The position numbers were made by a program, and so were the translations under genes. From assembly GCF_014466985.1 (NCBI RefSeq), contig NZ_AP022826.1, positions 1,674,001 through 1,738,000 on the forward strand: a stretch of DNA of 64,000 nucleotides, read 5' to 3'. The notes under the pieces were generated by a model. The model did no database searches, was not told the DNA's origin, and saw nothing but the letters and a program-made list of their open reading frames with translations. Each line of letters opens with the position of its first letter. The first letter of the stretch is position 1. Positions 3,685-37,615 of this stretch are shown here, piece by piece. Source of the stretch: Nitrosophilus labii (GTDB lineage Bacteria; Campylobacterota; Campylobacteria; Campylobacterales; Nitratiruptoraceae).

Positions 3685-3697
3685 ATAAGGAAAACCG

Positions 3698-4787: not shown

Positions 4788-5441
4788 ATGAAAAAAGTTA
4801 TACTTTTTTTACTTTTGACAATTGCTGCTATAGCAAATGAATATGTATTAGCGATCCAGTGGTTTCCTTCTGTTTGTAAAGTAAAAAACTATAAAGAGTG
4901 CCAAAGACCTTTACCGTTTTGGCGTTCAAACTTCACTCTCCATGGATTATGGCCTAAAAAAAAGTATTGTAACGTTTCGGCTAGAGAAAAGATTTTAGAC
5001 AAAAAGAGAGAGTGGCAAAAGATACCGCTTAAAATATCCCCTTATCTTAGTGAACTTATAGCTACCTATATGCCAGGATATATCTCCGGACTTCATAAAC
5101 ATGAATGGGTAAAACATGGCTCATGTTATAGCAAGAGTCCCGAAAAATACTTTTTAGATGCAATCTCTTTGGTATCACAGTTAAACACATCAAAAGTCAA
5201 AGAGTTTTTTTTAAAAAATAGAGGCAAAAGAGTCCAGACTCTCAAAATAAGAAAAGTTTTCGATAAAGAGTTTGGTGAAGGAAGCGGCAAAAAAGTAAAA
5301 TTTATCTGTAAAAATGGGTATCTAACCGAACTTAGAATCAATCTTAAAGGTAAAATCGTTCCAAATACTTCTATATACGATCTTTTGCAAAACTCCAAAA
5401 AAAGCTCTATAGGTTGCAAAATAGGATTAATTGCTAGATAA
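4788..5441 (+). CDS. RNase T2-family ribonuclease (RNase I-like), secreted
   Basis: A 217-residue RNase T2 family endoribonuclease that cleaves RNA non-specifically through 2',3'-cyclic phosphates. A signal peptide of about 17 residues (MKKVILFLLLTIAAIANE) sends it to the periplasm. Both catalytic blocks are intact: CAS-1 FTLHGLWP with His52, and CAS-2 HEWVKHGSC with His105, Glu106, Lys109 and His110. Several cysteines (30, 38, 61, 113 and C-terminal ones) could form the family's disulfides. A weak AAAAAGGGAT ribosome site precedes the ATG. It stands alone between a structured spacer and a convergent terminator. A nutritional RNA-scavenging role is an inference. Confidence 0.92.
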   Translation: MKKVILFLLLTIAAIANEYVLAIQWFPSVCKVKNYKECQRPLPFWRSNFTLHGLWPKKKYCNVSAREKILDKKREWQKIPLKISPYLSELIATYMPGYISGLHKHEWVKHGSCYSKSPEKYFLDAISLVSQLNTSKVKEFFLKNRGKRVQTLKIRKVFDKEFGEGSGKKVKFICKNGYLTELRINLKGKIVPNTSIYDLLQNSKKSSIGCKIGLIAR

Positions 5442-21872: not shown

Positions 21873-23549
21873 CTATTTTTCCTTAGCAACTCTAAATACC
21901 TCTTCTAATGTAGTTATTCCCTTTATAACCTTGCTAATACCGTCAACTATCATAGGTTGATATGAACCCTTTTTCTCGGCATATTCAACTATTTCTACTT
22001 TATTTGCGTTTTCAGAAATCAGTTTTGCCAATATATCGTCGATAACTAAAATCTCAGATATCATCGTCCTATCGAAATAACCTGTAAAATCACACTTAGA
22101 GCAACCTTTTCCTCCATAAAATTTAGTATTTTGGGGTATATACTTTTTAACCTTTTCGATAAGCTTTAACGGAGGTTTTATCTCTATTTTACAGTATGGG
22201 CAAATCTTTCTAACCAATCTTTGTGCAACGACACCTATTAACGAGTCGGCAATAAGATACGGTTTTAGTCCCATCTGAACCATTCTAGGTATTGCTCCGG
22301 GCGCATCATTGGTATGCAATGTTGAAAACACCAAATGTCCTGTTAAAGCTGCCTGAGCGGCCGCATTTAAAGTTTCAAAATCTCTGATTTCGCCTATTAA
22401 GATAATATCTGGGTCTTGTCTTAAAAAAGATTTTACGGCTTTAGCAAACGTCAAACCTATCTTCTCGTTTACCTGGATCTGCTGAACAAGGGGAAGTCTA
22501 TACTCTACTGGATCTTCTGCGGTCATAACTTTATTGGTTATGTTTTTTATCTCATTTAAAGCTGCGTACAAAGTAGTTGTTTTACCACTTCCCGTTGGAC
22601 CTGTTATAAGTATAATTCCATGTGGAGAGTGGATAAGTTCCATAAACGTGTTTAGATTTTCCTCTTCAAATCCCAACTCCTCAAGCTTTAAAAGTACCTT
22701 TCCTCTGTCTAAAATCCTCATTACCAAAGATTCGCCATAAATAGTTGGAGTCGTAGAGAGCCTAAAATCATAAATTTTATCTTCTATAGTAAAAGAGAAT
22801 CTTCCGTCTTGAGGCACCCTTTTTTCCGAAATATCTAAATTTCCTAAAAGTTTGATTCTTGAAGCAAGCGCATTATATATCTCTAGATCAAAAACAAAAT
22901 TTTCATGTAAAATACCATCTATTCTTGCCCTTACTATTACCTCTTTCTCATCAGGTTCTATATGGATATCACTTGCTCTTTTTACAATGGAGTCTTTGAT
23001 TATTAGTAAAATAAGCCTCATTACGGCACTCTCTTCTCCCTCTTTTTTCGCACCTTCAGTTCTTAACTCCTTTTTTACCTCTTCAACAATCTCTTTAGTC
23101 TGCTTTAATATCTCTATTCTATGAAAAATAACGTCTATATCTTCTTGAAGAGCCAAATATATCTTTATAGGTTTTAAAGATATAGTCCTCTCTAGATGCT
23201 CTAATGCTTCATAATTAAGCGGATCGGAAGTTGCCACATATAAAAAATCCTCATCTTCTTTAAAAGGTATCGCATTTGCCGCTTTTAAAAGATTGAAAGG
23301 ATATTTTTTTGCAAGTTTGTCAAAATCTATCTCTTCTCCATAAAGATCTATAAAATCGATCTTTAACTGTTTAGATAAAGCTTTTAAAAGCTCTTTTTGG
23401 GTTACAAACCCCTCTTCGATTAAAATTTCACCAAGTTTTTTTGTAAAATTAAGCTCTTTTTGAATCTTTAATGCACGCTCTAACTGTTCTGGCGTAATCA
23501 ATCTCTCTTCAACTAAAATATCGCCTAGACGTATCTTTTTAGCTATCAT
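21873..23549 (-). CDS. mshE: MSHA pilus assembly ATPase with MshEN c-di-GMP-type domain
   Basis: 558 residues. The N-terminus has two tandem 24-residue MshEN motifs: Arg7-Leu-Gly ... Gln30 and Lys38-Leu-Gly ... Gln61, spaced exactly as in c-di-GMP-binding MshE, with Lys replacing Arg in the second. The GspE core follows with GITLITGPTGSGKTTTL-type Walker A (seen as LITGPTGSGKTTTLYA), the Asp box, Walker B ILIGEIRDFETLNAA and His box FSTLHTNDA. A tetracysteine zinc element (CPYCKIE ... GCSKCDFTGY) is near the C-terminus. It powers pilin polymerisation. It overlaps mshN by 11 bases. Confidence 0.94.
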   Translation of the reverse strand: MIAKKIRLGDILVEERLITPEQLERALKIQKELNFTKKLGEILIEEGFVTQKELLKALSKQLKIDFIDLYGEEIDFDKLAKKYPFNLLKAANAIPFKEDEDFLYVATSDPLNYEALEHLERTISLKPIKIYLALQEDIDVIFHRIEILKQTKEIVEEVKKELRTEGAKKEGEESAVMRLILLIIKDSIVKRASDIHIEPDEKEVIVRARIDGILHENFVFDLEIYNALASRIKLLGNLDISEKRVPQDGRFSFTIEDKIYDFRLSTTPTIYGESLVMRILDRGKVLLKLEELGFEEENLNTFMELIHSPHGIILITGPTGSGKTTTLYAALNEIKNITNKVMTAEDPVEYRLPLVQQIQVNEKIGLTFAKAVKSFLRQDPDIILIGEIRDFETLNAAAQAALTGHLVFSTLHTNDAPGAIPRMVQMGLKPYLIADSLIGVVAQRLVRKICPYCKIEIKPPLKLIEKVKKYIPQNTKFYGGKGCSKCDFTGYFDRTMISEILVIDDILAKLISENANKVEIVEYAEKKGSYQPMIVDGISKVIKGITTLEEVFRVAKEK

Positions 23550-24486
23550 TTTGCATCCATTGTTCTAAAAGTTTTGCAGCATCTTTTGAGTGTTTAAACT
23601 TTAAATACACCTGCAATAGCTCTATTGCTGATTCTTTATCTCCAAGATGATATAAGGATTTTGCGTACAAAAGCCATGACTCTTCAGATTCGTTATCTAT
23701 CGTATTTGCGGTTTTTGCCCATTCAAGAGATTTTCTGTAATCTCTTTTTTCAAAATAGTATTTAGCAATTTTTATAGCCAACTTATATGTTTTCCTTTTT
23801 TGAAAAAGCTCTTCCAAATCCTTTATCGAAGGCTCTTTTATATTTAAAATATTTCGATTTTGCTCCAAATTAGCACTATTTTCTTTCTCAGTTTTTTGAG
23901 CATTTTTTAAAGATATATTTTTCTCTTCTATAATCACACTTTTTTCTTCTTTAACATCTTTAACTTTTTTTAACGGTTCACAACTCTCCTTAACTACAAA
24001 ATAGTCCAGATTTTTCTCTTTGGCCAAATCTATAAATCTGTTCAAATCTTCATAATTTTCAACTTTATTGCATCTTAGATATACTTTGTCGCTATCAATA
24101 CTTCCAAATTTCAGATAACACTCTAAACCGTAACTTTCTAAATTATCCTCTATTTTTTTAATATCAGAAAGATACTTTTTTCTAGATTCTAAAAACTGTA
24201 GCGCATAACACTTTTTTTCACTATTTGCAAATTTGCCCTTTTTTAGTTTTTTAACAATTTTTTGAGCACTATTTTCTATATGAATATTTGGCTCTTTTTT
24301 AATTAATTCCGATTTTTTCGACTTGTTAAATTCGACGGCTTTTTTTTCTTCAAAACTTTTTTCAGAAAAATCATCCATAATATAAATAAAAATAAAAATC
24401 ACAAAAAAAATCGAAATTATAAACGGGAAATACCGTTTTAATCTATACTTTTTACACTTTTTTTCTAAGCGTTCAAAATTAAACAT
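23539..24486 (-). CDS. mshN: MshN-like membrane protein with TPR repeats
   Basis: 315 residues. Basic N-terminus, one transmembrane helix at about 19-37 (YFPFIISIFFVIFIFIYIM), then a long Lys/Glu-rich region containing a compact cysteine-bearing segment (about 85-160) and C-terminal TPR-like helices (about 220-310, KIAKYYFEKRDYRKSLEWAK and following). Position between mshM and mshE matches MshN of the Vibrio MSHA operon, although sequence identity is low. Probably a periplasmic scaffold. Overlaps mshM by eight bases and mshE by 11. Confidence 0.75.
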   Translation of the reverse strand: MFNFERLEKKCKKYRLKRYFPFIISIFFVIFIFIYIMDDFSEKSFEEKKAVEFNKSKKSELIKKEPNIHIENSAQKIVKKLKKGKFANSEKKCYALQFLESRKKYLSDIKKIEDNLESYGLECYLKFGSIDSDKVYLRCNKVENYEDLNRFIDLAKEKNLDYFVVKESCEPLKKVKDVKEEKSVIIEEKNISLKNAQKTEKENSANLEQNRNILNIKEPSIKDLEELFQKRKTYKLAIKIAKYYFEKRDYRKSLEWAKTANTIDNESEESWLLYAKSLYHLGDKESAIELLQVYLKFKHSKDAAKLLEQWMQNDS

Positions 24487-25273
24487 CTATAAGACCTCCT
24501 TCTATCGCAGCCATAATCAGGAGGCACTCCGAGAGCTTTTGATACTTTTTTTTGTTGTTGCTTATAGCATAATCCAAAAGTAAAAAAAGGTTATATAAAA
24601 GTTTTTTTAAATCTCTAAAATTACCTTTTGTAACTTTATATATAAATCCAAGATACTTTTTTGAAAGTTCTTCGGCAAAAGAGTTCATATCGGCTTTAGA
24701 TAAAGTATTGTATATAAAATCTCTGCACTCATTCTTTTGCAATTTTCCAAGTTCCAAAACTTTATGTGGGCGAGACGAGAATTGAGGCTCATTTAAAATC
24801 TCTTTAGATTCATGTTTATGCATTGCTAGCAAAAACCAAAACGCTTTACTATCCGCTAAAATCCTTATAAGCTCTATCATCTTTTTAGAAAGAAGTTGCG
24901 CCTCATCAATAGTTATTAAACATTTCTCATCTTCATAGATTCTTACTACCTCTTTTATCAAACCTTCCAACGAAAAATCTTTTATCTCTCGCTCTCTTTT
25001 TTTAATAAGAGTCTTTATAAAATCGACAGGTTCCATAAAAGGGGTGTCAAATTTTATTATCGTGTATCTATTTTCCAAAAACTCTTCTATGTTGTTCAAA
25101 AATGCGCTTTTACCGACTCCCGGCTCACCTATTAAGAAAATAAGCTGTTTTGTCTCTTTATCTAAAATATTGGTTAACGAAGACTTTACGCCTAAAACTT
25201 CCGCATTCTCAAAAAAGTCGACTGCTTTTGCATTTTCTTCAAAAATTTTCGTAATCTCTATATAGTTACTCAA
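24479..25273 (-). CDS. mshM: MshM-like AAA ATPase (ExeA/GspA family)
   Basis: 264 residues. AAA+ ATPase with Walker A IGEPGVGKSAF (about 44-54) and Walker B CLITIDEAQLL. The ExeA/GspA/MshM group helps secretin assembly in type II secretion and MSHA systems. There is no C-terminal peptidoglycan-binding domain, consistent with MshM rather than full-length ExeA. It lies between mshL and mshN, as in Vibrio. Overlaps both neighbours by eight bases. Confidence 0.88.
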   Translation of the reverse strand: MSNYIEITKIFEENAKAVDFFENAEVLGVKSSLTNILDKETKQLIFLIGEPGVGKSAFLNNIEEFLENRYTIIKFDTPFMEPVDFIKTLIKKREREIKDFSLEGLIKEVVRIYEDEKCLITIDEAQLLSKKMIELIRILADSKAFWFLLAMHKHESKEILNEPQFSSRPHKVLELGKLQKNECRDFIYNTLSKADMNSFAEELSKKYLGFIYKVTKGNFRDLKKLLYNLFLLLDYAISNNKKKYQKLSECLLIMAAIEGGLIDV

Positions 25274-26765
25274 ATTTTCGCCCTTTAAAAATTTTTACCT
25301 CATCTATAGTGGGCATATTTGAAGATTTAACTATTTTAGGTACAAGCAAAATAAAAAGCTCGCTTCTTTTTTTAATATCTTGGGTTGAGTGAAAAGCTCT
25401 TCCTAGAAGCGGTAAATCTCCCAAAATGGGTACTTTTTTGTGATATTTTGATTCCATCAGGCTAATTAACCCCCCTATTAAAACTTTTTGACCATCTTTC
25501 ACTTTTACTATAGATGTCATCTGCTTTATCTTTATATCTGGAGGCAACTCTCTTTGAGTGGTATTTAACTCTTGGTTTTCGATAAGTTCACTTATTACAG
25601 GATTTATTTTCATAATAATACTATCTTGAGAGCTAACTTCAGGAATAACATATAAAGTAATTCCCACAAAAGTGGTGCCTAAAGAGTAAGTCGTAGTCCC
25701 CACTGGAGTGCCTGTAGTGGTGTACGATATCCCTCCGGTTTGATATTTATATGAAAGCTGTTCACCTACATTGATAACTGCGGGTTGATTGTTTAGAGTT
25801 AAAACTTTAGGATTGGAGAGTATATTCACATCTCCGTATGTTTTTAAAAAATTAATTAATCCTTCTGTTGAAAAATTATAACCTATATAATAATCTGGCT
25901 TCGTCAAGTTACTAAAAGTAGTACCGTTTGATTTAGTATCAAAACCACTAATACTTCCTGAAAGCGACAGATTAAATTTGCTCCAATCGATCCCTTTTGT
26001 ATAATTGTCGTTGTAAACAACTTCTATAATTTTTGCTTCAATTAAAACCTGCTTATGCATCTTTTTCATCAACGAATCTAAAAATTTCCTAATATTTTCT
26101 AAATCCTTTTTGTTGGCTCTTACTGTTAACAAAGAAGCGTCTTTATTGATAAAAAGTTTATAATCTTTAGAGCCTGAAAGAAGTTTTTCGATACTCTCTC
26201 TTAAGCTTTTCCAAAAGGTAAACTCGGACTTTGTGACTATTTTCGTATAATCTGCCGAGGTGCCTCCGCTTGATCCGTATCTAGAGTTGGTCGTACCCGT
26301 ACCGTAGCTAGAGGTAGTTGCAGTAGAGCCATAACTGTTTGATACTCCTCCGCCCGAGCCCGTATTTATCGACTTACTGCTTTCGCTACTAAGCTCGCTA
26401 ACATTTATATAGTCGATATTAAAAGTTTCACTTTTATAGTAAGAGACTTTTATAATATTTTTCATTTTGTCATATCTATAAAACAGATTTGACTCATCAA
26501 AGAGAAAATCGATAAATTCATCAAACGTATAATTTTGTATATTTATAAAATCTAACTTTTTCTTTATCGCATCTTTACTCTTTTTATCTTCAAAACTGAT
26601 AGTTAAACCGCATTGCATAGATAGGTCTTTTAATACATCTTCCACGCTAATGCCTCTTTTGCTATCACCACTGTACGCACTCAGCGAAAAGAGCCTGTTT
26701 TCACAAAGATTAGCCGCATTAACGTTTAAATATATAAATAAAATCGCAAAGATTAATATTCTCAT
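25266..26765 (-). CDS. mshL: MSHA outer-membrane secretin
   Basis: 499 residues. Signal peptide of about 17 residues (MRILIFAILFIYLNVNA). An STN-like N-terminal domain (about 40-110) is followed by a Ser/Gly/Thr/Tyr-rich low-complexity linker (about 125-168), a short N-domain (about 170-245) and the C-terminal secretin domain (about 300-490) containing VPILGDLPLLGRAFHS. The protein would form the outer-membrane channel through which the pilus passes. No lipobox is visible, unlike some MshL proteins. Overlaps mshK by four bases and mshM by eight. Confidence 0.92.
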   Translation of the reverse strand: MRILIFAILFIYLNVNAANLCENRLFSLSAYSGDSKRGISVEDVLKDLSMQCGLTISFEDKKSKDAIKKKLDFINIQNYTFDEFIDFLFDESNLFYRYDKMKNIIKVSYYKSETFNIDYINVSELSSESSKSINTGSGGGVSNSYGSTATTSSYGTGTTNSRYGSSGGTSADYTKIVTKSEFTFWKSLRESIEKLLSGSKDYKLFINKDASLLTVRANKKDLENIRKFLDSLMKKMHKQVLIEAKIIEVVYNDNYTKGIDWSKFNLSLSGSISGFDTKSNGTTFSNLTKPDYYIGYNFSTEGLINFLKTYGDVNILSNPKVLTLNNQPAVINVGEQLSYKYQTGGISYTTTGTPVGTTTYSLGTTFVGITLYVIPEVSSQDSIIMKINPVISELIENQELNTTQRELPPDIKIKQMTSIVKVKDGQKVLIGGLISLMESKYHKKVPILGDLPLLGRAFHSTQDIKKRSELFILLVPKIVKSSNMPTIDEVKIFKGRKFE

Positions 26766-27097
26766 TTATACTCCATTGTCTTTAAAATCTTGTTTTTTAC
26801 CAGATAAAGAACTCTCTTTTTGCCTCTTTTTTTTAAAATTACAAAATTTTTGCCTATTTTATAGATTTTATATCCCTCTATTTTATCTCCAACTTTATAA
26901 AATTTTCCATTAATATATGCTCTTTCGTTATATATAGCGCTTAACGTTAGTTTTAAAGTCCTAGAGACACTTTTTATCTTTTTTTTCTTCTTCAATAACT
27001 TTTGAGCCTTATAAAAAGGATCGTATTTTACAGGTAAAGGCAAAACTTCAGCAAATAGCGATAAATAAAGCATTGTTGATAATAAAAAGAGTCTCAC
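26762..27097 (-). CDS. mshK: MshK-like periplasmic protein
   Basis: 111 residues. N-terminal hydrophobic segment (about 1-16) that may be a signal peptide, a run of lysines, then a compact beta domain with SAIYNERAYINGKFYKVGDKI, typical of the GspB/PilP/MshK-type proteins that link the inner-membrane complex to the secretin. It precedes mshL as in the Vibrio operon. Four-base overlaps on both sides. Confidence 0.78.
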   Translation of the reverse strand: MRLFLLSTMLYLSLFAEVLPLPVKYDPFYKAQKLLKKKKKIKSVSRTLKLTLSAIYNERAYINGKFYKVGDKIEGYKIYKIGKNFVILKKRGKKRVLYLVKNKILKTMEYK

Positions 27098-27714
27098 TTT
27101 CGAACTCCGTAAAAATCTATATTGAAACTAAATTTTGGCAAAGAACCCTCCGTCTCGATTATAAGTTCTTTGATAGACATCAACATTTTATTACTCTCCA
27201 GCCCTCTAACAAAAGATATAATATTTAAAAATCTTCCTTTACCTTCCACACTGATTGCCTTTTTAACATAGAGTTTTCCTATAAACGGTTCCTCTTTATC
27301 CAATATTTTTATATCTTTTATTAAAATATTTTTATTTACGGATTCTTTTAGCAGACTGTTTAAAAATCTATTAAAATCTTTATCATTTACAAACAAAAAT
27401 CTTATTTTGTCAAATCTGCTTTTTAGCAAAAGAAGCTTCAGATTTAGCTCCTCTTTAAGATTTTCATTTTTAAATATCTCTTTTTTTTTCAAAAAAATTT
27501 TAGACTGCATTTTTTTTGGAGAATTCTTGGATATTTTTTGCTCTAAAGCAGCAAGCGTTTCTTGTTTTTGATTTATCTCTTCGATAATTGGCTCTATTAG
27601 GAAAAAGTATATTGTAAACAGAACTAAAAAAAGAATTATTAATAGTATAAAAACTCTTTTTCTAGGTTCTTGCTCTTTAATCTTTTCTTCCAAACTATAT
27701 ATAAATTCTATCAT
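27094..27714 (-). CDS. mshJ: MshJ/PilO-like bitopic membrane protein
   Basis: 206 residues. One transmembrane helix at about 21-41 (FILLIILFLVLFTIYFFLI), a coiled-coil stretch (about 45-95) and a ferredoxin-like periplasmic domain (about 100-205). This is the PilO/GspM/MshJ architecture that pairs with the PilN-like part of MshI to align the platform. It overlaps mshI and mshK by four bases each. Confidence 0.82.
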   Translation of the reverse strand: MIEFIYSLEEKIKEQEPRKRVFILLIILFLVLFTIYFFLIEPIIEEINQKQETLAALEQKISKNSPKKMQSKIFLKKKEIFKNENLKEELNLKLLLLKSRFDKIRFLFVNDKDFNRFLNSLLKESVNKNILIKDIKILDKEEPFIGKLYVKKAISVEGKGRFLNIISFVRGLESNKMLMSIKELIIETEGSLPKFSFNIDFYGVRK

Positions 27715-29183
27715 CTTTTAACCTTGACACTACTAGTATAGACTCCATCAGTATAACTAATCTGCGCTGTTTTAACCTCTGAATATCCTCTATTTAAAAG
27801 CTCTTTTATAAACTTTGCTATTCTATCGCGCTGATAATATTCAGAAATCAACATAATTTCCATCTCTTTCGGATTTTTTTGTTTTATATACTGAGTATTT
27901 AAACGATATTTTGCCAAGGCGTAAACTACATCGTTCATAAACTCTTCTCTTGCTACTTTTTGCCTCTCTATAAAGGGTATCATCTTCAAAGTAGTCTCAT
28001 AAACAAACATTTTGTGCTCTATATTCTCTATTTCTTTTTTAATTTTTTGGTTTTTATCTTTCAATCTTTTTAGTTCTTTTAAATATTTTGCAGATTCGCT
28101 TTTTAAACTTTTTAATCTCTTCTCCTTTTTAACAATACTCTCTTCTAACATTAAGTTGTTATAATAAAAATAACCGTAAATAGACAAGCCAAGCAGTGTA
28201 AAAAGAGCCAATACCGCTGTATATTTGAATATCATATATTCGTATATCGGCCTCTTTCTTTCCCAAAAAGAGAGATTGATTTTTTGAAGATTTTTAGTTT
28301 CATCAGCCGCTTGATATATATACTCGCAAAATAGATATATCTTTGTCTCTTCGCCTTCTTTATCGCAACATTTAACACTTTCTATCTCTAAATTTTCATA
28401 TCCGAAAGAAACAAAAAACTCTTTTAAACCCTCTATACTTTTTCCACCGAAATCGACAAATATCCTATCAATTCCTTCTAATGCAAAAATAGTTCGCTTA
28501 TGATTTATAGAATAGACTATCTTTTCTATATTTTTTAAAAAAATTTCTTGCAAGGCATCTATGATATGAGTCTCATCCAAAGAGTAGTTTTTCCTTTGAA
28601 GCCCTTTTAAACTCAGATACTCTTTAAGTTTTGCCGTTTCAATACCCACTCTTTTTGATATGGAAGATATAGAATCAATCAGTCTATATCCAATATACTC
28701 TCCTCTTTTATAGATAACGGCAAAAGCCTCATCTTCATCTAAATATATAAAAAGATCGTTTTTGTCTAGGTTAAGCCCTTTATTGTAAAGAGCCTGATAC
28801 GATAAAAATCTTGGAAAAACAAGATCAATAGCTTCTATTTTTTTATTGTATCTGTTAAACTCTGTTTCAAAATCATCTTTATTTAGGGCAAAAGCCTCTA
28901 TGATATACTCATCTCCCATATCATATTTTAAAAAGTCTATAACATACTCTTTATTTGCATCCAATCCAGCCTCTTCATACATCTTGATCTCTACTTGTAT
29001 GGAAAGTTCATCGTTTGATAGTTTTTTAGGTAGTTTAAAAGTTAGAGTATCCACATATTTAAGAGGAATAAGAGCACCGGTAAAAAACTTTTTAGTATCT
29101 TTAAAATTAGCGGATTTTATATCTTTACCGTCATATAATATAGCTTTTTCATTATATAAAAAAACAATTTTATTTCTTTCCAT
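27711..29183 (-). CDS. mshI: MshI: fused PilM-like (actin fold) and PilN-like protein
   Basis: 490 residues from the ATG at 29183, which has GAGG six bases upstream. An upstream TTG at 29195 overlapping the previous stop is the alternative. The N-terminal half (about 1-300) resembles the PilM/GspL cytoplasmic actin-like domain (IDLVFPRFLSYQAL, FALEGIDRIFVDFGG). A transmembrane helix at about 315-337 (YTAVLALFTLLGLSIYGYFYY) is followed by a Lys/Glu coiled coil and a PilN-like periplasmic domain. One protein thus covers both PilM and PilN roles, as GspL does. It links the cytoplasmic ring to the MshJ/MshK periplasmic parts. Confidence 0.82.
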   Translation of the reverse strand: MERNKIVFLYNEKAILYDGKDIKSANFKDTKKFFTGALIPLKYVDTLTFKLPKKLSNDELSIQVEIKMYEEAGLDANKEYVIDFLKYDMGDEYIIEAFALNKDDFETEFNRYNKKIEAIDLVFPRFLSYQALYNKGLNLDKNDLFIYLDEDEAFAVIYKRGEYIGYRLIDSISSISKRVGIETAKLKEYLSLKGLQRKNYSLDETHIIDALQEIFLKNIEKIVYSINHKRTIFALEGIDRIFVDFGGKSIEGLKEFFVSFGYENLEIESVKCCDKEGEETKIYLFCEYIYQAADETKNLQKINLSFWERKRPIYEYMIFKYTAVLALFTLLGLSIYGYFYYNNLMLEESIVKKEKRLKSLKSESAKYLKELKRLKDKNQKIKKEIENIEHKMFVYETTLKMIPFIERQKVAREEFMNDVVYALAKYRLNTQYIKQKNPKEMEIMLISEYYQRDRIAKFIKELLNRGYSEVKTAQISYTDGVYTSSVKVKR

Positions 29184-29191
29184 CACTATCC

Positions 29192-29659
29192 TCAATAAAT
29201 AATCTCTATATATCCGCTAAAAGGATAAACTTTTATAGTTGAGTTTTTATCTTTATAATTAAGTTTGATTATAACATTACTTTGTATTAAAGAATCTAAA
29301 GTCGTCATATTGTTATCGATTGAACCATCATGCAAACGCCCTATATTGTCAAAACACAATATATCAAGAGTGTAATTTAGTTTTGAGCGAAAAACGTAAT
29401 TTTTGCTTTTGGTTTTATCATCTATTTCACTCAATTTGTTAAAATCGATACAGCCTATGCTACTATTTACATCAGCTAAACTAGAAACTCTTTTATCGTA
29501 CCCTATAGCGCTATACCTGGCATTTTCTAGCTTCATAAAAACATAATTTGTATCATTTTTCAGATAGTCTGGCTTAATGCTATAAAAAGCTATTGAACTT
29601 AATATACCTATAATTATCAAAACTGTTATAAGTTCAACTAGTGTAAAAGCTTTTTTCAT
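29192..29659 (-). CDS. mshC: MSHA minor pseudopilin (MshC/GspH-like)
   Basis: 155 residues. The leader MKKA precedes FTLVELITVLIIIGILSSIAF, with Ala at -1 and Glu at +5. The remainder is a small beta domain. Two cysteines (IGCIDF and DILCFDN) may be paired. Its place between the PilX-like gene and mshI supports a minor pilin of the initiation complex. Overlaps of four bases on both sides. Confidence 0.8.
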   Translation of the reverse strand: MKKAFTLVELITVLIIIGILSSIAFYSIKPDYLKNDTNYVFMKLENARYSAIGYDKRVSSLADVNSSIGCIDFNKLSEIDDKTKSKNYVFRSKLNYTLDILCFDNIGRLHDGSIDNNMTTLDSLIQSNVIIKLNYKDKNSTIKVYPFSGYIEIIY

Positions 29660-30123
29660 GGCCTTTGTAACGTCCTTTTGGCAATTCTTACCGGAGAGAC
29701 AAAACCTTTTATTTTCGGATGTGATGAATTTGTCTCAACTACCGTTTCTATCAGTACATAGCCGTGAGACTCTTCTGTTAAAATAGGCACTACTCTATCG
29801 CAAGCCGACAGTTCAACACCATCGTTATCCTTACCGTTATAAAGATAATATTTTGTTATATTTACATCTGCTATGAATCTTCTATCGTTTGAATAAAATC
29901 TTAGATTTTTTATACAGCCTCTGTTTAAACTTCTGTCATCTCCCTCTATTTTCAAAATAGTAGCTTCAATGACGCTTTGCATAAATATTTCCGCTTGCTC
30001 TTTTATGTAGCTATCACTTATATGTTTTGCACTGATAGACGCATATTTAAGTGTTAAAACAGCCGCACCGCTTAAAAGCAGTACCATAAAAATAGCCATT
30101 AGTAGATTAAACGCTCTTCTCAA
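29656..30123 (-). CDS. mshP: MshP/PilX-like minor pilin
   Basis: 155 residues. The N-terminus MRRAFNLLMAIFMVLLLSGA has the hydrophobic helix but lacks the standard Glu+5 (mature FNLLM), as is common for PilX/GspK/MshP-like tip components. The periplasmic part includes paired cysteines (RGCIKNL ... LSACDRV). Its position next to MshO- and MshC-like genes supports the MshP assignment, which rests on order as much as on sequence. Confidence 0.7.
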   Translation of the reverse strand: MRRAFNLLMAIFMVLLLSGAAVLTLKYASISAKHISDSYIKEQAEIFMQSVIEATILKIEGDDRSLNRGCIKNLRFYSNDRRFIADVNITKYYLYNGKDNDGVELSACDRVVPILTEESHGYVLIETVVETNSSHPKIKGFVSPVRIAKRTLQRP

Positions 30124-31067
30124 AACACTACCTTCATTTTGGATATATGTATAGGAGTAGAACCCTTTACGCTTCTATTTATATCTAGACTAATTCTTAT
30201 TGTATAATCTATCTCGTCAAATCTAAATCTTGCCACATTTTTCATAAGAATCGTTACTCTACCTCCTGGATTTCCGTTAGAGTCGCCGCAAAATGTCTCG
30301 CCTCTCCATGGACGATAGTCATAAAAAAGAAGCAACGTATAATCATTGATATCGCTCCAGTTTACATCGTTACAGCTCCAGTCAATCTCTTTTAAATCCG
30401 CTCTTCTTGCTATTGCGTATGCGCTATCAACCAAAAAATATTTCTCATAAATAAATTTTGGCTGAACAGTATCTGTTATCTTAATATATCCGGTAGAGTT
30501 TATATCTATATCAAAACTATTTAAACTTTGATTTCCATGCCATCCAAAAGAGTTGTTAAAATCGTTAATATCGCTTCTTCCCCTATCAAAACTTCCCGCA
30601 AAAATCAGATTTACAATATTGTTAGCGTAAATATCATCGGAAATTACAAATTTTTTCTGAATCGTTGCAGCTATCGCATCGCCGTTACTGTTTGGAGAGT
30701 ATGTGGTGTTTGTATCTTTGTTTGACTTCTTCAAATCCAAAAAACCGCTGTAGCTTCCGTTTAACAAAGCCTCGTTTGCTATCCCTATCCACTCTAAAAC
30801 AGGTTTGATTGAAGTTAACTCCCCTATATACTCAAACTCTCCCGTTTGAGGGTCATAGCCAATCACGGTTGAAGGGACCCTGTTTGATAGATATTCGCTG
30901 ATCTGATTTACGGCTATTTGAGATTGTAAAGATAGTCTTGTAATCTCTTTTGCTTTATAACTCCTTATCAAAATCGTCTGCAGCGCTTTAAAGGTAGCGA
31001 CACTTAAAATCGTAACAATAACTACGACAAATATCAGCTCAATAAGCGTAAATCCTCTCTTATTCAT
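30120..31067 (-). CDS. mshO: MshO-like minor pilin
   Basis: 315 residues, the largest of the minor pilins. Leader MNKRG followed by FTLIELIFVVVIVTILSVATF, with Gly at -1 and Glu at +5. The large globular domain has cysteines in DWSCNDVNW and ETFCGDSNGN. Size and position fit MshO/PilW (GspJ-like). Overlaps the previous gene by eight bases and the next by four. Confidence 0.78.
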   Translation of the reverse strand: MNKRGFTLIELIFVVVIVTILSVATFKALQTILIRSYKAKEITRLSLQSQIAVNQISEYLSNRVPSTVIGYDPQTGEFEYIGELTSIKPVLEWIGIANEALLNGSYSGFLDLKKSNKDTNTTYSPNSNGDAIAATIQKKFVISDDIYANNIVNLIFAGSFDRGRSDINDFNNSFGWHGNQSLNSFDIDINSTGYIKITDTVQPKFIYEKYFLVDSAYAIARRADLKEIDWSCNDVNWSDINDYTLLLFYDYRPWRGETFCGDSNGNPGGRVTILMKNVARFRFDEIDYTIRISLDINRSVKGSTPIHISKMKVVF

Positions 31068-31689
31068 ACCAAGAAAGCCTGTTTATATGAGTTTGACCAA
31101 TATTAAAAGAGTGAAAAACAAATCTAGCTATATTTTTTCTAAGCAGCTCCGTTTTTTTCGTACTATTTACATCGATAACTATATATTTTGTGTTTGTGGA
31201 GTTAGGAGTTATAAAGTTTTCATCTTTAAATACCTCATCATTTAGACTTAAATCCTCTACGAAATCAACCTTAACACTAAGTTTATAACTTCTGCTACTG
31301 TTATAATTGTTTGCATTGACAGTTGTAAAATCATCCAAGTCATCATAAGGAGGCTCGCCACTATCGGCTCCCAACGTCGAAGCCTTCACTTTGTGCTCAC
31401 AATTTCTAGAACCTAAAAAACCTCCTACTCTGTATCCGTTATTGTTACATTCATAAGCAGCATTGCCGTTATTAACAAGCAAAATATCGTCATATTCGCT
31501 ATTTTTTTCATCCCAAGCGGTAGCTTTGATAAGTCCCAAAAGAGCTACTGCACTAAACATAGCCTCTTCTCTTATACTTTGGGTAGAGGCTTTAGTGCTA
31601 AGCTGTAAAATTTTTGGCAAAACTGTAAATGCAATAGCGATTATCACCATAGAAAATATAAGCTCTATCAGCGTAAAACCTTTTCTCAT
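31060..31689 (-). CDS. mshD: MshD-like minor pilin
   Basis: 209 residues. Leader MRKG followed by FTLIELIFSMVIIAIAFTVLPKIL, with Gly at -1 and Glu at +5, the GspI/PilV/MshD style. The globular domain has cysteines in AAYECNNNGY and SRNCEHK. Overlaps mshQ upstream by four bases. Identity as MshD is inferred from operon order. Confidence 0.75.
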   Translation of the reverse strand: MRKGFTLIELIFSMVIIAIAFTVLPKILQLSTKASTQSIREEAMFSAVALLGLIKATAWDEKNSEYDDILLVNNGNAAYECNNNGYRVGGFLGSRNCEHKVKASTLGADSGEPPYDDLDDFTTVNANNYNSSRSYKLSVKVDFVEDLSLNDEVFKDENFITPNSTNTKYIVIDVNSTKKTELLRKNIARFVFHSFNIGQTHINRLSWYE

Positions 31690-34367
31690 CTAAAGAGCCT
31701 TATACCTCTTTTGTTATCGCTTATATTAATATCTTCTATATCAACCCCTTTAAAAGCGCCTCCGCTTTCTACTGCATTTCCCTGAGTCTGAGTTTTATAC
31801 TCGTACTTTATACAAGGATGAGAGAGACAACTACTTCCAGAAGTATAGTTATAATCTTCTCCAAACCCTTTTGGCAAATACCAAAGCCAAGAAGAGATAT
31901 TTAGATGTATATAAAAAACTCCCTCTAGCGCGTTACTGTTTGAAATGTTTATATTAAAAGTTCCGTTATTGTCCAATGAAGAGGATGTATTGATATTAAC
32001 GTCTGTATTAAGGATAGTAGTATCTGTTACGTTAGTCTCAACTATATTTCCGTAAGAGATATTTGAATGGTAGCTATTTTGATACCAGTTTACCAAAGTT
32101 TCGTTAAAATCTTTTACAAACTCGTTTTTTATACTGCTAAAAACTAAAATTTTTGCGGTAGTGTTGTCATCTGTTTTGTTTGTTGATATATCTTTTGGCC
32201 AAACTCTAGCAAAATAAAAAGTGGCATTCATATCATCTTTCACCTTGGCACCATTTAATCTCTTTGCTACGTTTGTTATGATATTAACTTCTTTCAACTT
32301 GACAAATATCGGATCTATCGGGTTATCAAAACTTCTGTTTACATCAAATGCGTATCTATTTTTAGCTTTACCGTTTCTAAAAAGAGTTACATCAAACCTC
32401 ATAGTTTTATTGATATCCTCCAAAGAGCTGTTAGCGTCATTCGTTGTACCTAGATATACGGCCGTTATATCTATATTGCCGCTGCTGTTTACATCGTAAA
32501 AAAACTTTATCTCAACATCTTCTCCATAACAGCTGCTATTAAAGTCGTTAAGCAGAGTTCCGTTTTTTGAAAAAACGCTCAACACAGCTTCTAAAGTTAC
32601 GTTCATATCTTTTAAATCCGAATTTTTAATCATATAGAGCCAATTCTGGCCGGTAGATACGGTAAAGTTAAGATCGGTGATATTGGCTTCGTAGGGTTTT
32701 ACGTTGATAGTTGTAGTATTTGACGCTATTAATCTTTCGCTATCGTTTGTATCGTCAAAGTCGATTCTAGCAAACTCGCTACCGTTTATCTCTTTTACAG
32801 TAACATTAATATCGCCAATCTCATCATAGTTTGCTGTAATATTTTTTGCCTCTCCGCTAGTAAAACTAAAAGAAGCAAGCGTTAACGTTCCGTTTTCACA
32901 TCCTACTTTAGTCTCGTTTGCATTCACCGTAAATGAGCCTTTTAGGGTTTCGTTGTAGTCGGTTGCATTTGTATCCGAGCCAAAAACTTTAGCGGCAAAT
33001 GAGAGATTAAAATCTTCCCCCGCATAAATCTGGTTTGATGGCGGATATATAATAAATCTATCGGGTCTTACGGCAAAATTATCGGTTGATAAAGTTCTAT
33101 TGTCTTCAACACTCAAAGGACAGCTATCGTCAATATCCCTTTTCCACGCTATCAAAACTCTAACTTTTTTCAAAGCGTTTGAGAGGACTATACTGCTATA
33201 GGTAGATAGGTTTTGATCGCTAAAAAGCAGTTTTTGCCAAGGAGTAAAGCTTCTGTTTAAATCATCTACTATCTGTACACATACAGTTCCGTTAAACTCT
33301 TGATAGTTTGTTCCCATCTCATCCAAAGAAGCTATTGTTAGACTAAAATCTTTAGAGATTATTTTAGTAGAGATGTTTCGATCGTTTATATCTCTAAAAG
33401 TATCCCAAGCGTCAAATTTATAGTTAACGTTGTTGCCGTTATCTGGCAAACATCGGGGAATGATAATCAACTCGTCCCAAGAGATATCGTCATATCCTCC
33501 GCCGCCTGTAAATGTGCCGGATACAATTTCTACTTTGCCGTTACTTATAGGAGAGAGATTTCCGTAATATGTCAAGTTTAAATCGTAAACACTGTCGTCG
33601 CTTGCGTTTAAATCAAAACTCTTAATCAAAGAGTTGTCTATATAAAAGTTTAGTTTGTTTATACCGTTTTCGTGAATATCTCTAATCCTAGATATAAAAA
33701 AAGTTATCCGATCCGCGCTGCAAGAGGTGTTAAAATCGTAAGATACCGAAGTATCTTCAAAATCGTCGGGATAATAAAAAGGTTTATCGTTATCGTTTGT
33801 TAAATCATCATAGTTGTCGTTACTTTCATAACAACCAAACCCATAACATATATAATCCGGAGTATCACCAATATGCCTTCTTTGTATAAAATTTATAGCC
33901 GAACTTCCCCGATCGCTAACAAGTCTAATGGCGCTAAAATGAAAATCATCGATATCGTCGATATTTCTAGAGCTACAATCACGTTCTCTACCGTTACGAT
34001 AACAGCTTCCCCTAACCGCAATGGCATGCATTCCTGCGGTTAAATATAGATCAACATCCACAAAAGTCTCTCCATCGTTACCCGTCGCTACTAAATTACC
34101 GTCTATATATACTCTAAGATTGCTATCAGTTTCAAAACCGTACGGAGCTACCAACTCAATTTTAGTTATATTTACGTCTTCAGTTACATAAAAACGACTT
34201 GGATTATTCAGATAGTAGTCATAAGTACTCTCGTCATACCTAGTTAACGGATCTTCAGGCGTATACATGGTATTTTTGTTATCTCCTGGATGTAGATACC
34301 CCTCTAAAATAATATCCGCTCTTAAAAAAAGCGTAAAAAAAAACGCAAGAAGGAGTATAAATCTCAT
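31686..34367 (-). CDS. mshQ: MshQ-like large tip/adhesin protein
   Basis: 893 residues, strongly enriched in Asn and Asp. Signal peptide of about 17 residues (MRFILLLAFFFTLFLRA). The N-terminal part is beta-rich and PA14-like (LRVYIDGNLVATGNDGETF). The second half contains the DUF6701-type block FAVRPDRFIIYPPSNQIYAGEDFNLSF seen here in pieces around residue 445-470, characteristic of MshQ proteins. Several Ig-like strands follow. It would sit at the pilus tip or surface and could be an adhesin. Its ATG overlaps the rsmE stop (ATGA), so the pilus operon is coupled to rsmE. Confidence 0.8.
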   Translation of the reverse strand: MRFILLLAFFFTLFLRADIILEGYLHPGDNKNTMYTPEDPLTRYDESTYDYYLNNPSRFYVTEDVNITKIELVAPYGFETDSNLRVYIDGNLVATGNDGETFVDVDLYLTAGMHAIAVRGSCYRNGRERDCSSRNIDDIDDFHFSAIRLVSDRGSSAINFIQRRHIGDTPDYICYGFGCYESNDNYDDLTNDNDKPFYYPDDFEDTSVSYDFNTSCSADRITFFISRIRDIHENGINKLNFYIDNSLIKSFDLNASDDSVYDLNLTYYGNLSPISNGKVEIVSGTFTGGGGYDDISWDELIIIPRCLPDNGNNVNYKFDAWDTFRDINDRNISTKIISKDFSLTIASLDEMGTNYQEFNGTVCVQIVDDLNRSFTPWQKLLFSDQNLSTYSSIVLSNALKKVRVLIAWKRDIDDSCPLSVEDNRTLSTDNFAVRPDRFIIYPPSNQIYAGEDFNLSFAAKVFGSDTNATDYNETLKGSFTVNANETKVGCENGTLTLASFSFTSGEAKNITANYDEIGDINVTVKEINGSEFARIDFDDTNDSERLIASNTTTINVKPYEANITDLNFTVSTGQNWLYMIKNSDLKDMNVTLEAVLSVFSKNGTLLNDFNSSCYGEDVEIKFFYDVNSSGNIDITAVYLGTTNDANSSLEDINKTMRFDVTLFRNGKAKNRYAFDVNRSFDNPIDPIFVKLKEVNIITNVAKRLNGAKVKDDMNATFYFARVWPKDISTNKTDDNTTAKILVFSSIKNEFVKDFNETLVNWYQNSYHSNISYGNIVETNVTDTTILNTDVNINTSSSLDNNGTFNINISNSNALEGVFYIHLNISSWLWYLPKGFGEDYNYTSGSSCLSHPCIKYEYKTQTQGNAVESGGAFKGVDIEDINISDNKRGIRLFR

Positions 34368-35032
34368 AATAAAACCTTCATAGAGAGCGCCAAAGCCGCA
34401 GTTTCACTTCTTAAAACCGTTTCTGTATCCAAGCCTAAAACTTTTAAATCTCTAAATAGTTCTCTCTCTTTCTCGCTAAAACCGCCTTCTGGACCTACAA
34501 CAATATTTTCTATATTATCGGTATTTTTAACTTTATTTTCACTAAAATCCAAAACTACTATGTTATTGGTTTCTTTTATAATTTTAGAAAGATTTTTAGC
34601 AAAAGAGATCTCCATTAAAGAGCTTCTTCCACACTGCTGACAAGAGTTGATCAAAATCTTTTGAAGTTTTTCCGGTTTTATTTTAAAATTTCTCTGACTT
34701 CTGTCGCAATATACAAAAGTTATCTTGCCTATTCCTATTTCGTTTAACATCGGTAAAGTTTTCTCCACAGTTTTTGGATCAACAACGCACCAGATAAGAT
34801 GAAAAGATTTTTTAGGCACAATCTCTTTTTTTTCTCTATGAACAAGCGTTAACAAAGCTCTTTTACGGCTTACTTCGGTTATATCATAAAAGTATAAAAA
34901 GCCGTCTTTTAGATTTCTAAACACTACTCTTTCATTTTTTTTATGACGTCTAACTTTAAATAGATAGTTATATACTTCACCCTCTATCTCTAAAATCTCT
35001 TCACCACTTTTAGGATGGTAAACAAACTGCAT
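34364..35032 (-). CDS. rsmE: 16S rRNA (uracil1498-N3)-methyltransferase
   Basis: 222 residues. SPOUT-fold methyltransferase that makes m3U1498 in 16S rRNA. N-terminal PUA-like domain (about 1-65) with NYLFKVRRHKKNE. The catalytic domain has KTVEKTLPMLNEIGI, CQQCGRSSL, VVGPEGGFSEKE and LRSETAALALSMK. It starts one base into the hepT stop (TAATG) and ends inside the mshQ start, an unusual position for a housekeeping gene between a toxin-antitoxin pair and a pilus operon. Confidence 0.94.
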   Translation of the reverse strand: MQFVYHPKSGEEILEIEGEVYNYLFKVRRHKKNERVVFRNLKDGFLYFYDITEVSRKRALLTLVHREKKEIVPKKSFHLIWCVVDPKTVEKTLPMLNEIGIGKITFVYCDRSQRNFKIKPEKLQKILINSCQQCGRSSLMEISFAKNLSKIIKETNNIVVLDFSENKVKNTDNIENIVVGPEGGFSEKERELFRDLKVLGLDTETVLRSETAALALSMKVLL

Positions 35033-35421
35033 TACAACTCTTTTACCGATTTTATAAAAATTTTAAAATCATCTAACCTATCTAAATACCCTATCAAAGC
35101 CTCTTTTTTAATCTCTTCATAATCGTGTATTAAGATATTTCTAAACCCCACCATTTTTATAAAATCATTAGCAATATCTTTTTGTAAAATATTAGCTTTT
35201 ACAAGTCCTTCAATGCATTCTCTATAACTTTTTGGTTTTACAAGATTATATTTTGCAACAAGTTTACAAGCAATATCTATTACGATTTGAATAGATTCAA
35301 AAAATCCATACCTAATCTCCCACTCTTTTTTCTTATCAAATTCGCCTTTTTTTATATCCTCTTTTATTTCCTTTAAAACAGATATATTATCTTCTAATCT
35401 TTGTAACTTTTGCAATATCAT
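35032..35421 (-). CDS. hepT: HepT-like HEPN-domain ribonuclease toxin
   Basis: 129 residues. All-helical HEPN protein with the catalytic/modification motif R-X4-H-X-Y as Arg94-NILI-His99-Asp-Tyr101. In characterised HepT/MntA pairs, MntA adenylylates the tyrosine of this motif and silences the RNase. The gene overlaps the mntA end by 35 bases, with its own AAAGGA ribosome site inside mntA. Toxicity here is inferred from the family. Confidence 0.85.
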   Translation of the reverse strand: MILQKLQRLEDNISVLKEIKEDIKKGEFDKKKEWEIRYGFFESIQIVIDIACKLVAKYNLVKPKSYRECIEGLVKANILQKDIANDFIKMVGFRNILIHDYEEIKKEALIGYLDRLDDFKIFIKSVKEL

Positions 35422-35833
35422 CTTTTTCTATCCTTTCTTTGAAGGCTTTATCTATCATCTTATATAAAGGCTTTCTATCAAAATAATAAAGATAACTTTT
35501 CGATTTAAAATCAATATACAACTCTTCATCGGCTATTTTTATGGGAATATGATTAATAGCTATCTCGTAAGATAACAGAGAATCTTTTTTAAAAAGATCT
35601 TTTAAATTAACAATATCAACCTTTTTCCCTAAAATCTCTTCCAACTCCAAATTTAAATCTATCTTATTCTCTATTTCATCTTTTTCAATCCAAACAGCAA
35701 TATCAACATCACTAAATGAGTGAAAATCTCCTTTTGCGAAAGAGCCAAAAAGTAGCACCAATTTATAATCTTTATCTAAAAAATATTTCTTTAGAATCTC
35801 TATTATCTCTCTATATACTCTATTTTCAATCAT
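35387..35833 (-). CDS. mntA: MntA-like nucleotidyltransferase antitoxin
   Basis: 148 residues. Minimal nucleotidyltransferase with the exact motif G-S-X10-D-X-D (Gly30-Ser31 ... Asp42-Val-Asp44), in LLFGSFAKGDFHSFSDVDIA. It is expected to transfer AMP to the HepT toxin encoded immediately downstream. The Lys-rich C-terminal tail is longer than in minimal members. The start overlaps the stop of the upstream membrane-protein gene (ATGA). Confidence 0.85.
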   Translation of the reverse strand: MIENRVYREIIEILKKYFLDKDYKLVLLFGSFAKGDFHSFSDVDIAVWIEKDEIENKIDLNLELEEILGKKVDIVNLKDLFKKDSLLSYEIAINHIPIKIADEELYIDFKSKSYLYYFDRKPLYKMIDKAFKERIEKDDIAKVTKIRR

Positions 35834-36240
35834 AAAATCCTCGCCAATATATAGATTACAACTCCAGCTACTGCTTCACTTAGATAAATCTTTGAGGCAT
35901 ACTTTTTAAACTCCTCTTGCAACTCTTTTTCTATCGATTTTATTGGCCTGATTTTTTTATAAAGAATTATCTGATAAACAAAGATACCTATCGCTAAAAA
36001 TATCATCAAAAATATCTCTAGATTCCATAAGGTAAACTGAGTAACCGCCATTACGACTACGCCGGTAAAAGCTGTCATACCGAAAATGATGTTTTGTATC
36101 AAAAGCAGATTTCTGAATTTTTTAGAAAATTTTATAAAACTTTTTTCATTTTTGATAAGAAAATAAGCTAATTGTGATAAAATCAAAAAAACGGCAACCG
36201 CCATATGGATATAAATAGACATTTTAACCAACTGTTCCAA
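35830..36240 (-). CDS. Small four-helix membrane protein of unknown function
   Basis: 136 residues, with four predicted transmembrane helices: about 6-27, 46-68, 73-95 and 117-135. A His in the first helix (YIHMAVAV) is reminiscent of heme- or copper-binding CopD-like membrane proteins, but no full motif supports that. From memory, C. jejuni has a small integral membrane protein near this place (Cj0157c). It is the first gene of the minus-strand run that leads through mntA, hepT and rsmE to the pilus operon. Confidence 0.7.
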   Translation of the reverse strand: MEQLVKMSIYIHMAVAVFLILSQLAYFLIKNEKSFIKFSKKFRNLLLIQNIIFGMTAFTGVVVMAVTQFTLWNLEIFLMIFLAIGIFVYQIILYKKIRPIKSIEKELQEEFKKYASKIYLSEAVAGVVIYILARIL

Positions 36241-36254
36241 GAAAACTCCTTTTT

Positions 36255-36366
36255 TTAGGATGAAGGCAGAGGGGAGAAGGAAGAAAGAAGAAGGGTGAAG
36301 AAGGATAAATTGTTCTTCTTCTCTTTACTCTTCTTCCTTCACCCTTCTCCCTTCAACCTTCAACCT
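36255..36366. repeat. Intergenic inverted repeat, purine/pyrimidine arms (GAAGGGTGAAG type)
   Basis: Left arm about 36260-36305 is nearly all purine (GAAGGCAGAGGGGAGAAGGA and following). The right arm about 36312-36365 is the pyrimidine complement. GAAGGGTGAAG (36290-36300) and CTTCACCCTTC (36337-36347) pair perfectly over 11 bases. The arrangement is like the GAGTGGTT spacers but with a different word. It lies between two divergent genes, so it contains the moeA promoter region. Confidence 0.75.
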
Positions 36367-36397
36367 TATTTTATAAAATTATATCAAAAGGAAGTTG

Positions 36398-37615
36398 ATG
36401 AAAGTTACTATAGAAAAGGGCTTAAAAATCATTGAAGATGTAGTTGAAAAAAAAGGCCTCGAGATAGTTCCTATAGAGGAAGCAACAGGAAGGATATCAG
36501 CGCAAAATTTAAAGGCAAACTTCAATCTTCCAAGATTTGACAACTCCGCAATGGACGGATTTGCCGTTAAGTTATCAGACGCCGGTAAAAAAGTTAAAGT
36601 TATAGAAACAGTATTGGCCGGAGAAAATAAAGAGATAATTTTAAAAGAAAATAGCGCCGTAAAGATAATGACCGGAGCCAAAATACCAAGAGGTTCTGAA
36701 GCAGTAGTGCCGATAGAAGATGTTACCATTGAAGAAGATTACGTAACATTGCCAAAAGAGATCAAAAAATACGCCAATATAAGAAAAGCCGGAGAAGATA
36801 TTAGCCAAGGCGAAACTATAGTAAAAGCAGGAGAAAAAATAGACGCCTATACTATTGGAGTCTTAGCATCGCAAGGGTACTCGTATCTAAAAGTGTACAA
36901 AAGAGTAAGAGTCGGTGTTTTTGCTACCGGAAAAGAGCTTAAGATGCATTATGAAAATATAGAGCCTCACCAGATATATAACTCAAATACTCCCGTTTTT
37001 TACTCAAGAGCAAAGGAGCTAGGTTGCGAAGTGAGCTTTTTAGGCTCAAGCGATGACGATAAAGAATCCATCAAGGAGCTTATCAAAAAAGCGCAAGATT
37101 TTGATCTTCTAATAACAAGCGGTGGAGTAAGCGTAGGAGAGGCTGATTTTACCAAAGAGGCTTTTTTGGAGCTTGGAACAAAAATATATTTTGATAAAGT
37201 TGAGATAAAACCGGGAAAGCCAACAACTTTTGGCACTCTAAATAAGACCCTTATACTAAATCTTCCGGGCAATCCGTTAGCGGCTGCGCTAAATTTTGAG
37301 ATTTTTGGAAGATTTATAATAAACAAGTTAAGCGGACGCAAAGATATTTATCAAAACTGTATAGAAGCTATATTAAAAGAGGATATTAAAAACAGACCTG
37401 GTCGCGAAGTTGTGATACCTGGCTTTTTTGACGGAAAATTTTTTATACCATCGCAAAAAAAAGGTCCCGGTATGGTAACTCCTTTAAGCAACTCAAACGG
37501 ATATATCATACTTCATAGAGAGATCGCTTTGCTCAAAGAGAACACTAAAGTCAAATTTATACCAATTGATTTTGAGTTTTTCTCAAAGGAAAAAATGAAT
37601 ATATATACATTATAG
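36398..37615 (+). CDS. moeA: Molybdopterin molybdenumtransferase
   Basis: 405 residues. Inserts molybdate into adenylylated molybdopterin, the last step of Moco synthesis. Blocks NLPRFDNSAMDGFAVK, IMTGAKIPRGSEAVVPIED, HQIYNSNTPVFYSRA, TSGGVSVGEADF and LPGNPLAAALNFEIF are diagnostic. I use the ATG at 36398, with AGGAAG just ahead, rather than the TTG one codon upstream. It is consistent with the molybdopterin enzyme at 10.7-12.8 kb and with moaA at 46.5 kb. Confidence 0.95.
   Translation: MKVTIEKGLKIIEDVVEKKGLEIVPIEEATGRISAQNLKANFNLPRFDNSAMDGFAVKLSDAGKKVKVIETVLAGENKEIILKENSAVKIMTGAKIPRGSEAVVPIEDVTIEEDYVTLPKEIKKYANIRKAGEDISQGETIVKAGEKIDAYTIGVLASQGYSYLKVYKRVRVGVFATGKELKMHYENIEPHQIYNSNTPVFYSRAKELGCEVSFLGSSDDDKESIKELIKKAQDFDLLITSGGVSVGEADFTKEAFLELGTKIYFDKVEIKPGKPTTFGTLNKTLILNLPGNPLAAALNFEIFGRFIINKLSGRKDIYQNCIEAILKEDIKNRPGREVVIPGFFDGKFFIPSQKKGPGMVTPLSNSNGYIILHREIALLKENTKVKFIPIDFEFFSKEKMNIYTL

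Follow-up and report, generated by a model that had tools for sequence, protein, structure and literature searches.

A HepT/MntA toxin-antitoxin pair at the joint between memP and rsmE in a pilus-gene run of Nitrosophilus labii

The locus and its gene run

The window analysed here is a stretch of 64,000 nucleotides of Nitrosophilus labii (contig NZ_AP022826.1, positions 1,674,001 to 1,738,000), in which the genes of a HepT/MntA toxin-antitoxin (TA) pair lie between memP, encoding a membrane protein, and the rRNA methyltransferase gene rsmE, upstream of a set of pilus genes. The gene order, coordinates and overlaps given for this region by a first-pass annotation all match the sequence, and the features are as follows (positions are those of the window):

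36395-37615, plus strand: moeA, divergent landmark (Pfam MoeA_N, MoCF_biosynth, MoeA_C)
36241-36394: hairpin-bearing interval, the sole non-coding DNA heading the run, common to memP and the divergent moeA
35830-36240, minus strand: memP, heading the gene run; membrane protein of 136 amino acids, start codon TTG
35387-35833, minus strand: mntA, predicted adenylyltransferase antitoxin of 148 amino acids with GSX10DXD (NCBIfam, Pfam Polbeta, PDB profile)
35032-35421, minus strand: hepT, predicted HEPN RNase toxin of 129 amino acids with RX4HXY intact (NCBIfam, Pfam HepT-like, PDB profile)
34364-35032, minus strand: rsmE, 16S rRNA (uracil 1498-N3) methyltransferase (NCBIfam NF008695)
31686-34367, minus strand: gene for an mshQ-like large protein (assigned by position)
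20634-31689, minus strand: remaining pilus run of 12 gap-free genes (prepilins, secretin, ATPases, PilC-like)

Between 36240 and 20634 the minus strand carries 17 genes in succession without a gap, 15.6 kb in all, and 15 of their 16 junctions are overlaps of 1-35 bases, the other being an abutment. In order, the overlaps amount to 4, 35, 1, 4, 4, 8, 4, 4, 4, 4, 4, 4, 8, 8 and 11 bases, sizes that depend on gene starts chosen mechanically. The first four belong to memP/mntA, mntA/hepT, hepT/rsmE and rsmE/mshQ-like, with the ATG of mntA lying within the memP stop (ATGA) and the rsmE start within the hepT stop (TAATG). Since the run has no gaps, one transcript is possible, as had been proposed for about 15 kb, and a single operon transcript of about 15.6 kb from 36240 to 20634 appears plausible. 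Tight packing is the rule throughout the 17 genes and not a mark of the TA pair.

Identity of the pair

Both proteins carry the signature motifs of their families, namely GSX10DXD in MntA (GSFAKGDFHSFSDVD) and RX4HXY in HepT (RNILIHDY, with the Tyr present), and both pass the cut-off of 60 bits of their NCBIfam equivalogs, MntA with 74.4 bits against MntA_antitoxin (NF047752) and HepT with 92.7 bits against HepT_toxin (NF047751). Pfam agrees in placing MntA in Polbeta and HepT in HepT-like. Moreover, profiles built from six homologues each match solved Shewanella chains in the PDB, 6m6u_B and 5yep_B for HepT (E ~4e-14) and 5yep_A for MntA (E 6.5e-9). The antitoxin gene stands directly upstream of the toxin gene, and the GC content of hepT and mntA is 25.1 and 25.7%, versus 30-39% in ten other genes measured. 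The earlier assignment to HepT/MntA is thus upheld by motifs and cut-offs alike, and the pair is an ordinary type VII HepT/MntA TA pair, whose toxicity and adenylylation are predicted from its sequence. Outside the window, the same genome has another HepT-like gene (C1:320269-320562), immediately preceded by an MNT-like gene.

The memP-rsmE joint in relatives

The family of the window comprises 22 genomes, of which 21 have an rsmE gene that was found (all but G018), and all 21 sites were examined, including that of the window's own genome (G000). In each of them memP is present and adjoins either rsmE or the TA pair. In 17 the two genes are direct neighbours, overlapping or at most 15 bases apart: a 1-base overlap is seen in nine (G002, G003, G006, G008, G010, G014, G015, G017 and G020) and a 4-base overlap in G001 and G011, they abut in G019 and G021, and they lie 2 to 15 bases apart in G004, G005, G012 and G013. 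In the other four (G000, G007, G009 and G016) the joint is filled by the HepT/MntA pair or its remains. The first-pass annotation had proposed an insertion between conserved genes and a comparison of the junction in close relatives, and these 17 empty and four filled sites bear the proposal out.

The four filled joints differ in the state of their cargo. The pair is intact in G000; in G007 and G009 both frames are open but the motif His is absent; and G016 holds a wreck, in which mntA is broken across frames and only about the first 27 residues of hepT remain. In G000, G007 and G009 the pair begins in the memP stop (ATGA or GTGA) and ends in the rsmE start (TAATG or TGATG). The joint of G016 has received a second cargo between memP and mntA, a DUF4160/DUF2442 pair (L051, about 3878-4411), which we take to be possibly TA-like.

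The junction on the other side of rsmE bears on the pilus genes. Among 31 loci examined, the window included, mshQ-like homologues directly follow rsmE in 12, and a 4-base overlap of the two genes occurs in nine genomes (G000, G002, G007, G008, G009, G015, G017, G019 and G024), only three of which carry the TA pair. Because the other six have the overlap without it, the pair did not create the link between rsmE and the pilus genes, which, read from these sequences, is older than the pair or at least independent of it. In the same way, an overlap of memP with rsmE already exists at 11 of the 17 family sites that lack the TA pair. The earlier suggestion that insertion brought rsmE and the pilus downstream of TA transcription, and so under its influence, therefore stands in one part only: both lie gap-free downstream of the pair, but a new control over the pilus does not follow from an arrangement that TA-free genomes share.

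Signals for expression

In the window there is not one non-coding base before mntA, and therefore a separate TA promoter is not apparent. The Shine-Dalgarno stretch of mntA (TGGCGAGGA) is located at the 3' end of memP, and the same stretch stands before rsmE in G002, the only empty site for which anti-Shine-Dalgarno energies were computed. The best such energies before mntA are -6.4 kcal/mol in G000, -6.1 in G007 and -1.9 in G009, and before rsmE they are -3.0 in G000, -2.9 in G007, -3.5 in G009 and -6.4 in G002. From the difference between G000 and G002 we infer that rsmE in G000 would be more dependent on coupling to hepT. A sigma-70 scan of positions 29000-37000 gave 38 sites, not significantly more than the 31.6 (standard deviation 5.9) found in shuffled sequences; promoters of Campylobacterota are poorly fitted by such a scan.

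HepT/MntA beside rsmE or pilus genes elsewhere

An order-wide sample was compared by eye, using the places of PF01934, rsmE and mshX-like genes among the matches listed in 248 genomes. A general association of HEPN/MNT pairs with rsmE was rejected, given that among these matches HepT adjoins rsmE only in the window's family and in G048, where the order is rsmE, mntA, hepT with about 200 non-coding bases after rsmE and the pair belongs to another subfamily. A general association with pilus genes was likewise discarded: among the matches listed, family members are the only ones with an mshX-like gene at most 10 kb from HepT. These cases are the memP-rsmE joint (G000, G007 and G009) and an additional HEPN/MNT pair (G007, G009 and G016), which has a different pilin-like gene at a distance of about 7 kb.

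In 74 named HepT loci, covering up to 4 kb on each side and many of them shortened by contig ends, there was no rsmE or memP match at E 0.01, and msh-like genes occurred in the flanks of two. One is L111 (Sulfurimonas STA_12), with two tandem HEPN/MNT pairs at 2771-4372, the first recognised by eye without a family scan, 155 bases before mshQ-like and prepilin genes. The other is L106 (a Helicobacteraceae bin), where hepT ends one base from the end of a convergent mshO-like gene. The flanks of L117, near L111 in the tree, have no msh-like genes. The pilus company of L111 and L106 is a lead found after the fact, not a link.

Origin and history of the pair

In the concatenated MntA+HepT tree the copies from the four filled joints are united in a single clade (support 100/98 in the version of 63 rows and 98/98 in that of 71, the latter being the same rows with eight put back), and the copies closest to it are from Campylobacterota. 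G016 enters the 63-row tree as one MntA piece of about 90 residues, covering 34% of the columns. In the moeA tree the nearest relatives of two carriers are empty, namely G002 for G000, and G012 and G013 for G016, which groups with these two in the genus of G007 and G009. Furthermore, memP in G002 and G003 has one extra codon (N or D) before the stop compared with G000, a difference that favours a gain in the G000 line and makes the empty form look ancestral in the genus.

On both sides of the insertion G000 and G002 remain similar, with 89% and 96% identity over 100 bases each. Import of the flanks together with the TA pair was rejected, as there is no rise in divergence beside the insertion (100-base windows elsewhere range from 0.57 to 0.98), and a joint transfer of rsmE and TA between genera was set aside because the one-clade test of the window's genus (p 0.041) is too weak.

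The HepT copies lacking the motif His

The motif reads RNILINEY in G009 (AAT at the His site) and RNLLIQEY in G007 (CAG), versus a His kept in 67 of the 69 named homologues with a match across this position, the two exceptions being L170, which is frameshifted, and L168, which is divergent. MntA keeps GSX10DXD in both genomes. Between G007 and G009 the ratio of nonsynonymous to synonymous substitution rates (dN/dS) of hepT is 0.137 (bootstrap 0.06-0.25), or 0.104 without the overlap, and the values for mntA outside the overlap, rsmE and memP are 0.163, 0.089 and 0.072. Eight control pairs gave hepT values of 0.023, 0.116, 0.19, 0.375 (one very close pair), 0.056, 0.062, 0.127 and one undefined, a rough comparison since L133, a member of one of these pairs, has lost the Arg of the motif and several pairs approach saturation at synonymous sites. 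HepT in G007 and G009 thus looks still under constraint. In the second HEPN/MNT pair of these genomes (L083, 7116-7532, in G007; L082, 7494-7910, in G009) HepT has RNFLAPQY in G007, with Pro for the motif His, versus RNFLAHQY in G009.

What a missing His means for toxicity differs between the systems described. In Shewanella, HepT R97G and H102A are reported to lose toxicity (PMC4621449), and in Legionella the HEPN variants R98A and H103A still arrest growth (PMC11586414), so that loss of the His need not kill the toxin.

Explanations weighed

We consider it probable, at about 0.72, that a type VII HepT/MntA pair entered the memP-rsmE joint of an older memP-rsmE-pilus operon as a patchy passenger of the site. 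Transcription of the pair would probably come from the memP promoter by read-through, followed by serial translation: mntA would use the Shine-Dalgarno stretch formerly placed before rsmE, hepT would come next, and rsmE would be translated by coupling. MntA, made first, would by analogy with Shewanella polyadenylylate the Tyr of the HepT motif RX4HXY and so keep the RNase off. One lineage of the pair would be held patchily in the family, repeatedly gained or lost, and decaying in some species. Several observations weigh against this reading. Within the clade G000 groups with G016 (99/90 and 98/88), contradicting moeA; as a constraint uniting G016, G007 and G009 is not rejected (p-AU, approximately unbiased test, 0.36), the conflict is weak. 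The stretch before mntA in G009 binds the anti-Shine-Dalgarno only weakly (-1.9 kcal/mol), promoter-like matches occur inside memP (36158-36129) and at the mntA start (35829-35802), in a scan whose total is near chance, and the reading gives no account of how the pair came to enter exactly this joint. A pair already ancestral at the joint, lost again and again in the family and surviving in the window as a vertical relic, would agree with the same site in two genera, with the single clade and with the wreck in G016. It would, however, cost 11 losses versus a minimum of three changes on the moeA tree, and the extra memP codon of G002 and G003 points to an older empty form in the window's genus, so that we hold this history to be rather unlikely.

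Entry of the pair as a passenger does not need TA control of rsmE or the pilus to explain the arrangement. Such control, the idea of the first-pass annotation, could draw on the gap-free succession of TA, rsmE and pilus genes, on the Shewanella pair, in which MntA binds its own promoter (activity being 1.6-fold higher without the pair) and motility is affected (PMC4621449), and on the two other copies of the same TA subfamily beside related pilus genes, 155 bases upstream in L111 and convergent in L106. The convergence means that L106 has no shared TA-pilus transcript, and with no non-coding DNA before mntA, six genomes in which rsmE overlaps mshQ without TA, and only family HepT places within 10 kb of an mshX-like gene among the matches listed, control of this kind seems very improbable. 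Domestication in part of the family, with the His-less HepT retained in a non-toxic role, as partner or substrate of MntA, finds some favour in the two altered motifs, the conserved GSX10DXD and a dN/dS of hepT comparable to the 0.02-0.19 of six of the eight controls. Yet the substitutions differ and are each one base from a His codon, for which reason the His may have been lost independently and not long ago, and the low dN/dS may reflect an earlier period; given also the growth arrest by Legionella H103A (PMC11586414) and the His present in the window's own HepT, we judge it unlikely. A broader scheme, in which the joint would be a slot for promoterless TA-like pairs and this HepT/MntA subfamily would be drawn to such pilus operons, its toxin then being disarmed by missense change with the protein retained, until HepT/MntA becomes a non-toxic nucleotidyltransferase module made in step with RsmE and the pilus, is a speculation that we likewise judge unlikely.

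Whatever its history, one TA pair at one operon joint is seen here as a natural series (intact, His-less, wrecked and empty), and such a series can be used to study how cells tolerate a toxin gene placed upstream of those for an rRNA methylase and a pilus. It also raises the question of whether serial translation of downstream genes favours missense over frameshift as the way in which the toxin is lost, an idea with contrary evidence in G016, which frameshifted and truncated its copy.

Neighbouring genes and the intergenic hairpin

RsmE scores 317 bits against the NCBIfam equivalog NF008695 (cut-off 246). For memP no Pfam model above cut-off and no NCBIfam match was found. The mshQ-like protein has no Pfam match up to E 0.5 and no NCBIfam match up to E 0.01, and its name rests on position only. 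Pfam confirms pilus genes through T2SSF, T2SSE with MshEN, and secretin, and a prepilin N-methylation motif occurs in two of three short genes scanned beside the mshQ-like gene. On the other side moeA adjoins memP in the 21 family genomes examined, in one of them 900 bases away. An open reading frame with an OrfB/IS605 helix-turn-helix domain, probably a transposase fragment, lies between the two genes in G013 (L059, 1868-2494) and widens their divergent interval to about 900 bases.

In the window the memP/moeA interval contains a long imperfect purine/pyrimidine palindrome (36257-36366), and the hairpin within 36241-36394 has an RNA fold of -62.9 kcal/mol (z -5.9) and 45-nucleotide arms that are 80% complementary. 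With BLAST, another 14 matches (E < 0.001) appear, spread over 10 places of the genome, which makes the palindrome a member of a dispersed repeat family; in the nearest relative, G002, its counterpart is weaker and diverged. The 22 sub-threshold Rfam matches, all on this hairpin and to microRNA and snoRNA models, were taken as artefacts. Elsewhere in the window, positions 4788-5441 hold a ribonuclease T2 family gene (Pfam PF00445, 70.3 bits), with an N-terminus that by eye resembles a signal peptide.

Comparison with known systems

Literature on HepT/MntA, type VII TA and TA in operons gave, by title and abstract, no pointer to the memP-rsmE joint, which is no proof of absence. A paper in Genetics of 2009 reportedly dealt with the decay of ccdAB. 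This pair of Escherichia coli, lying between folA and apaH, resembles the one in the window in its fixed chromosomal place between housekeeping genes and its absence from some strains (PMC7232551, PMC7167474), and decay of such chromosomal pairs is described there as well. It belongs to another TA family, and its empty site is a 77-bp intergenic region in K-12 and HS, unlike the stop-start overlap inside an operon that forms the empty site here.

The HEPN-MNT pair of Legionella pneumophila is similar in that HEPN is poly-AMPylated by MNT, for which GSX10DXD is needed, and differs in that its RNase uses a metal site and changes of the Arg or His of RX4HXY leave toxicity (both from PMC11586414). 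The likeness to SO_3166/SO_3165 of Shewanella oneidensis extends to the antitoxin gene standing first, the overlapping genes, both motifs and the profile match (PMC7641770, PMC4621449). That pair is described as bicistronic, with a transcript start 30 nucleotides upstream of the antitoxin gene, whereas the pair of the window lies inside a gap-free run of 17 genes. Altogether, it looks like a further type VII member and a passenger of its site rather than a new control system.

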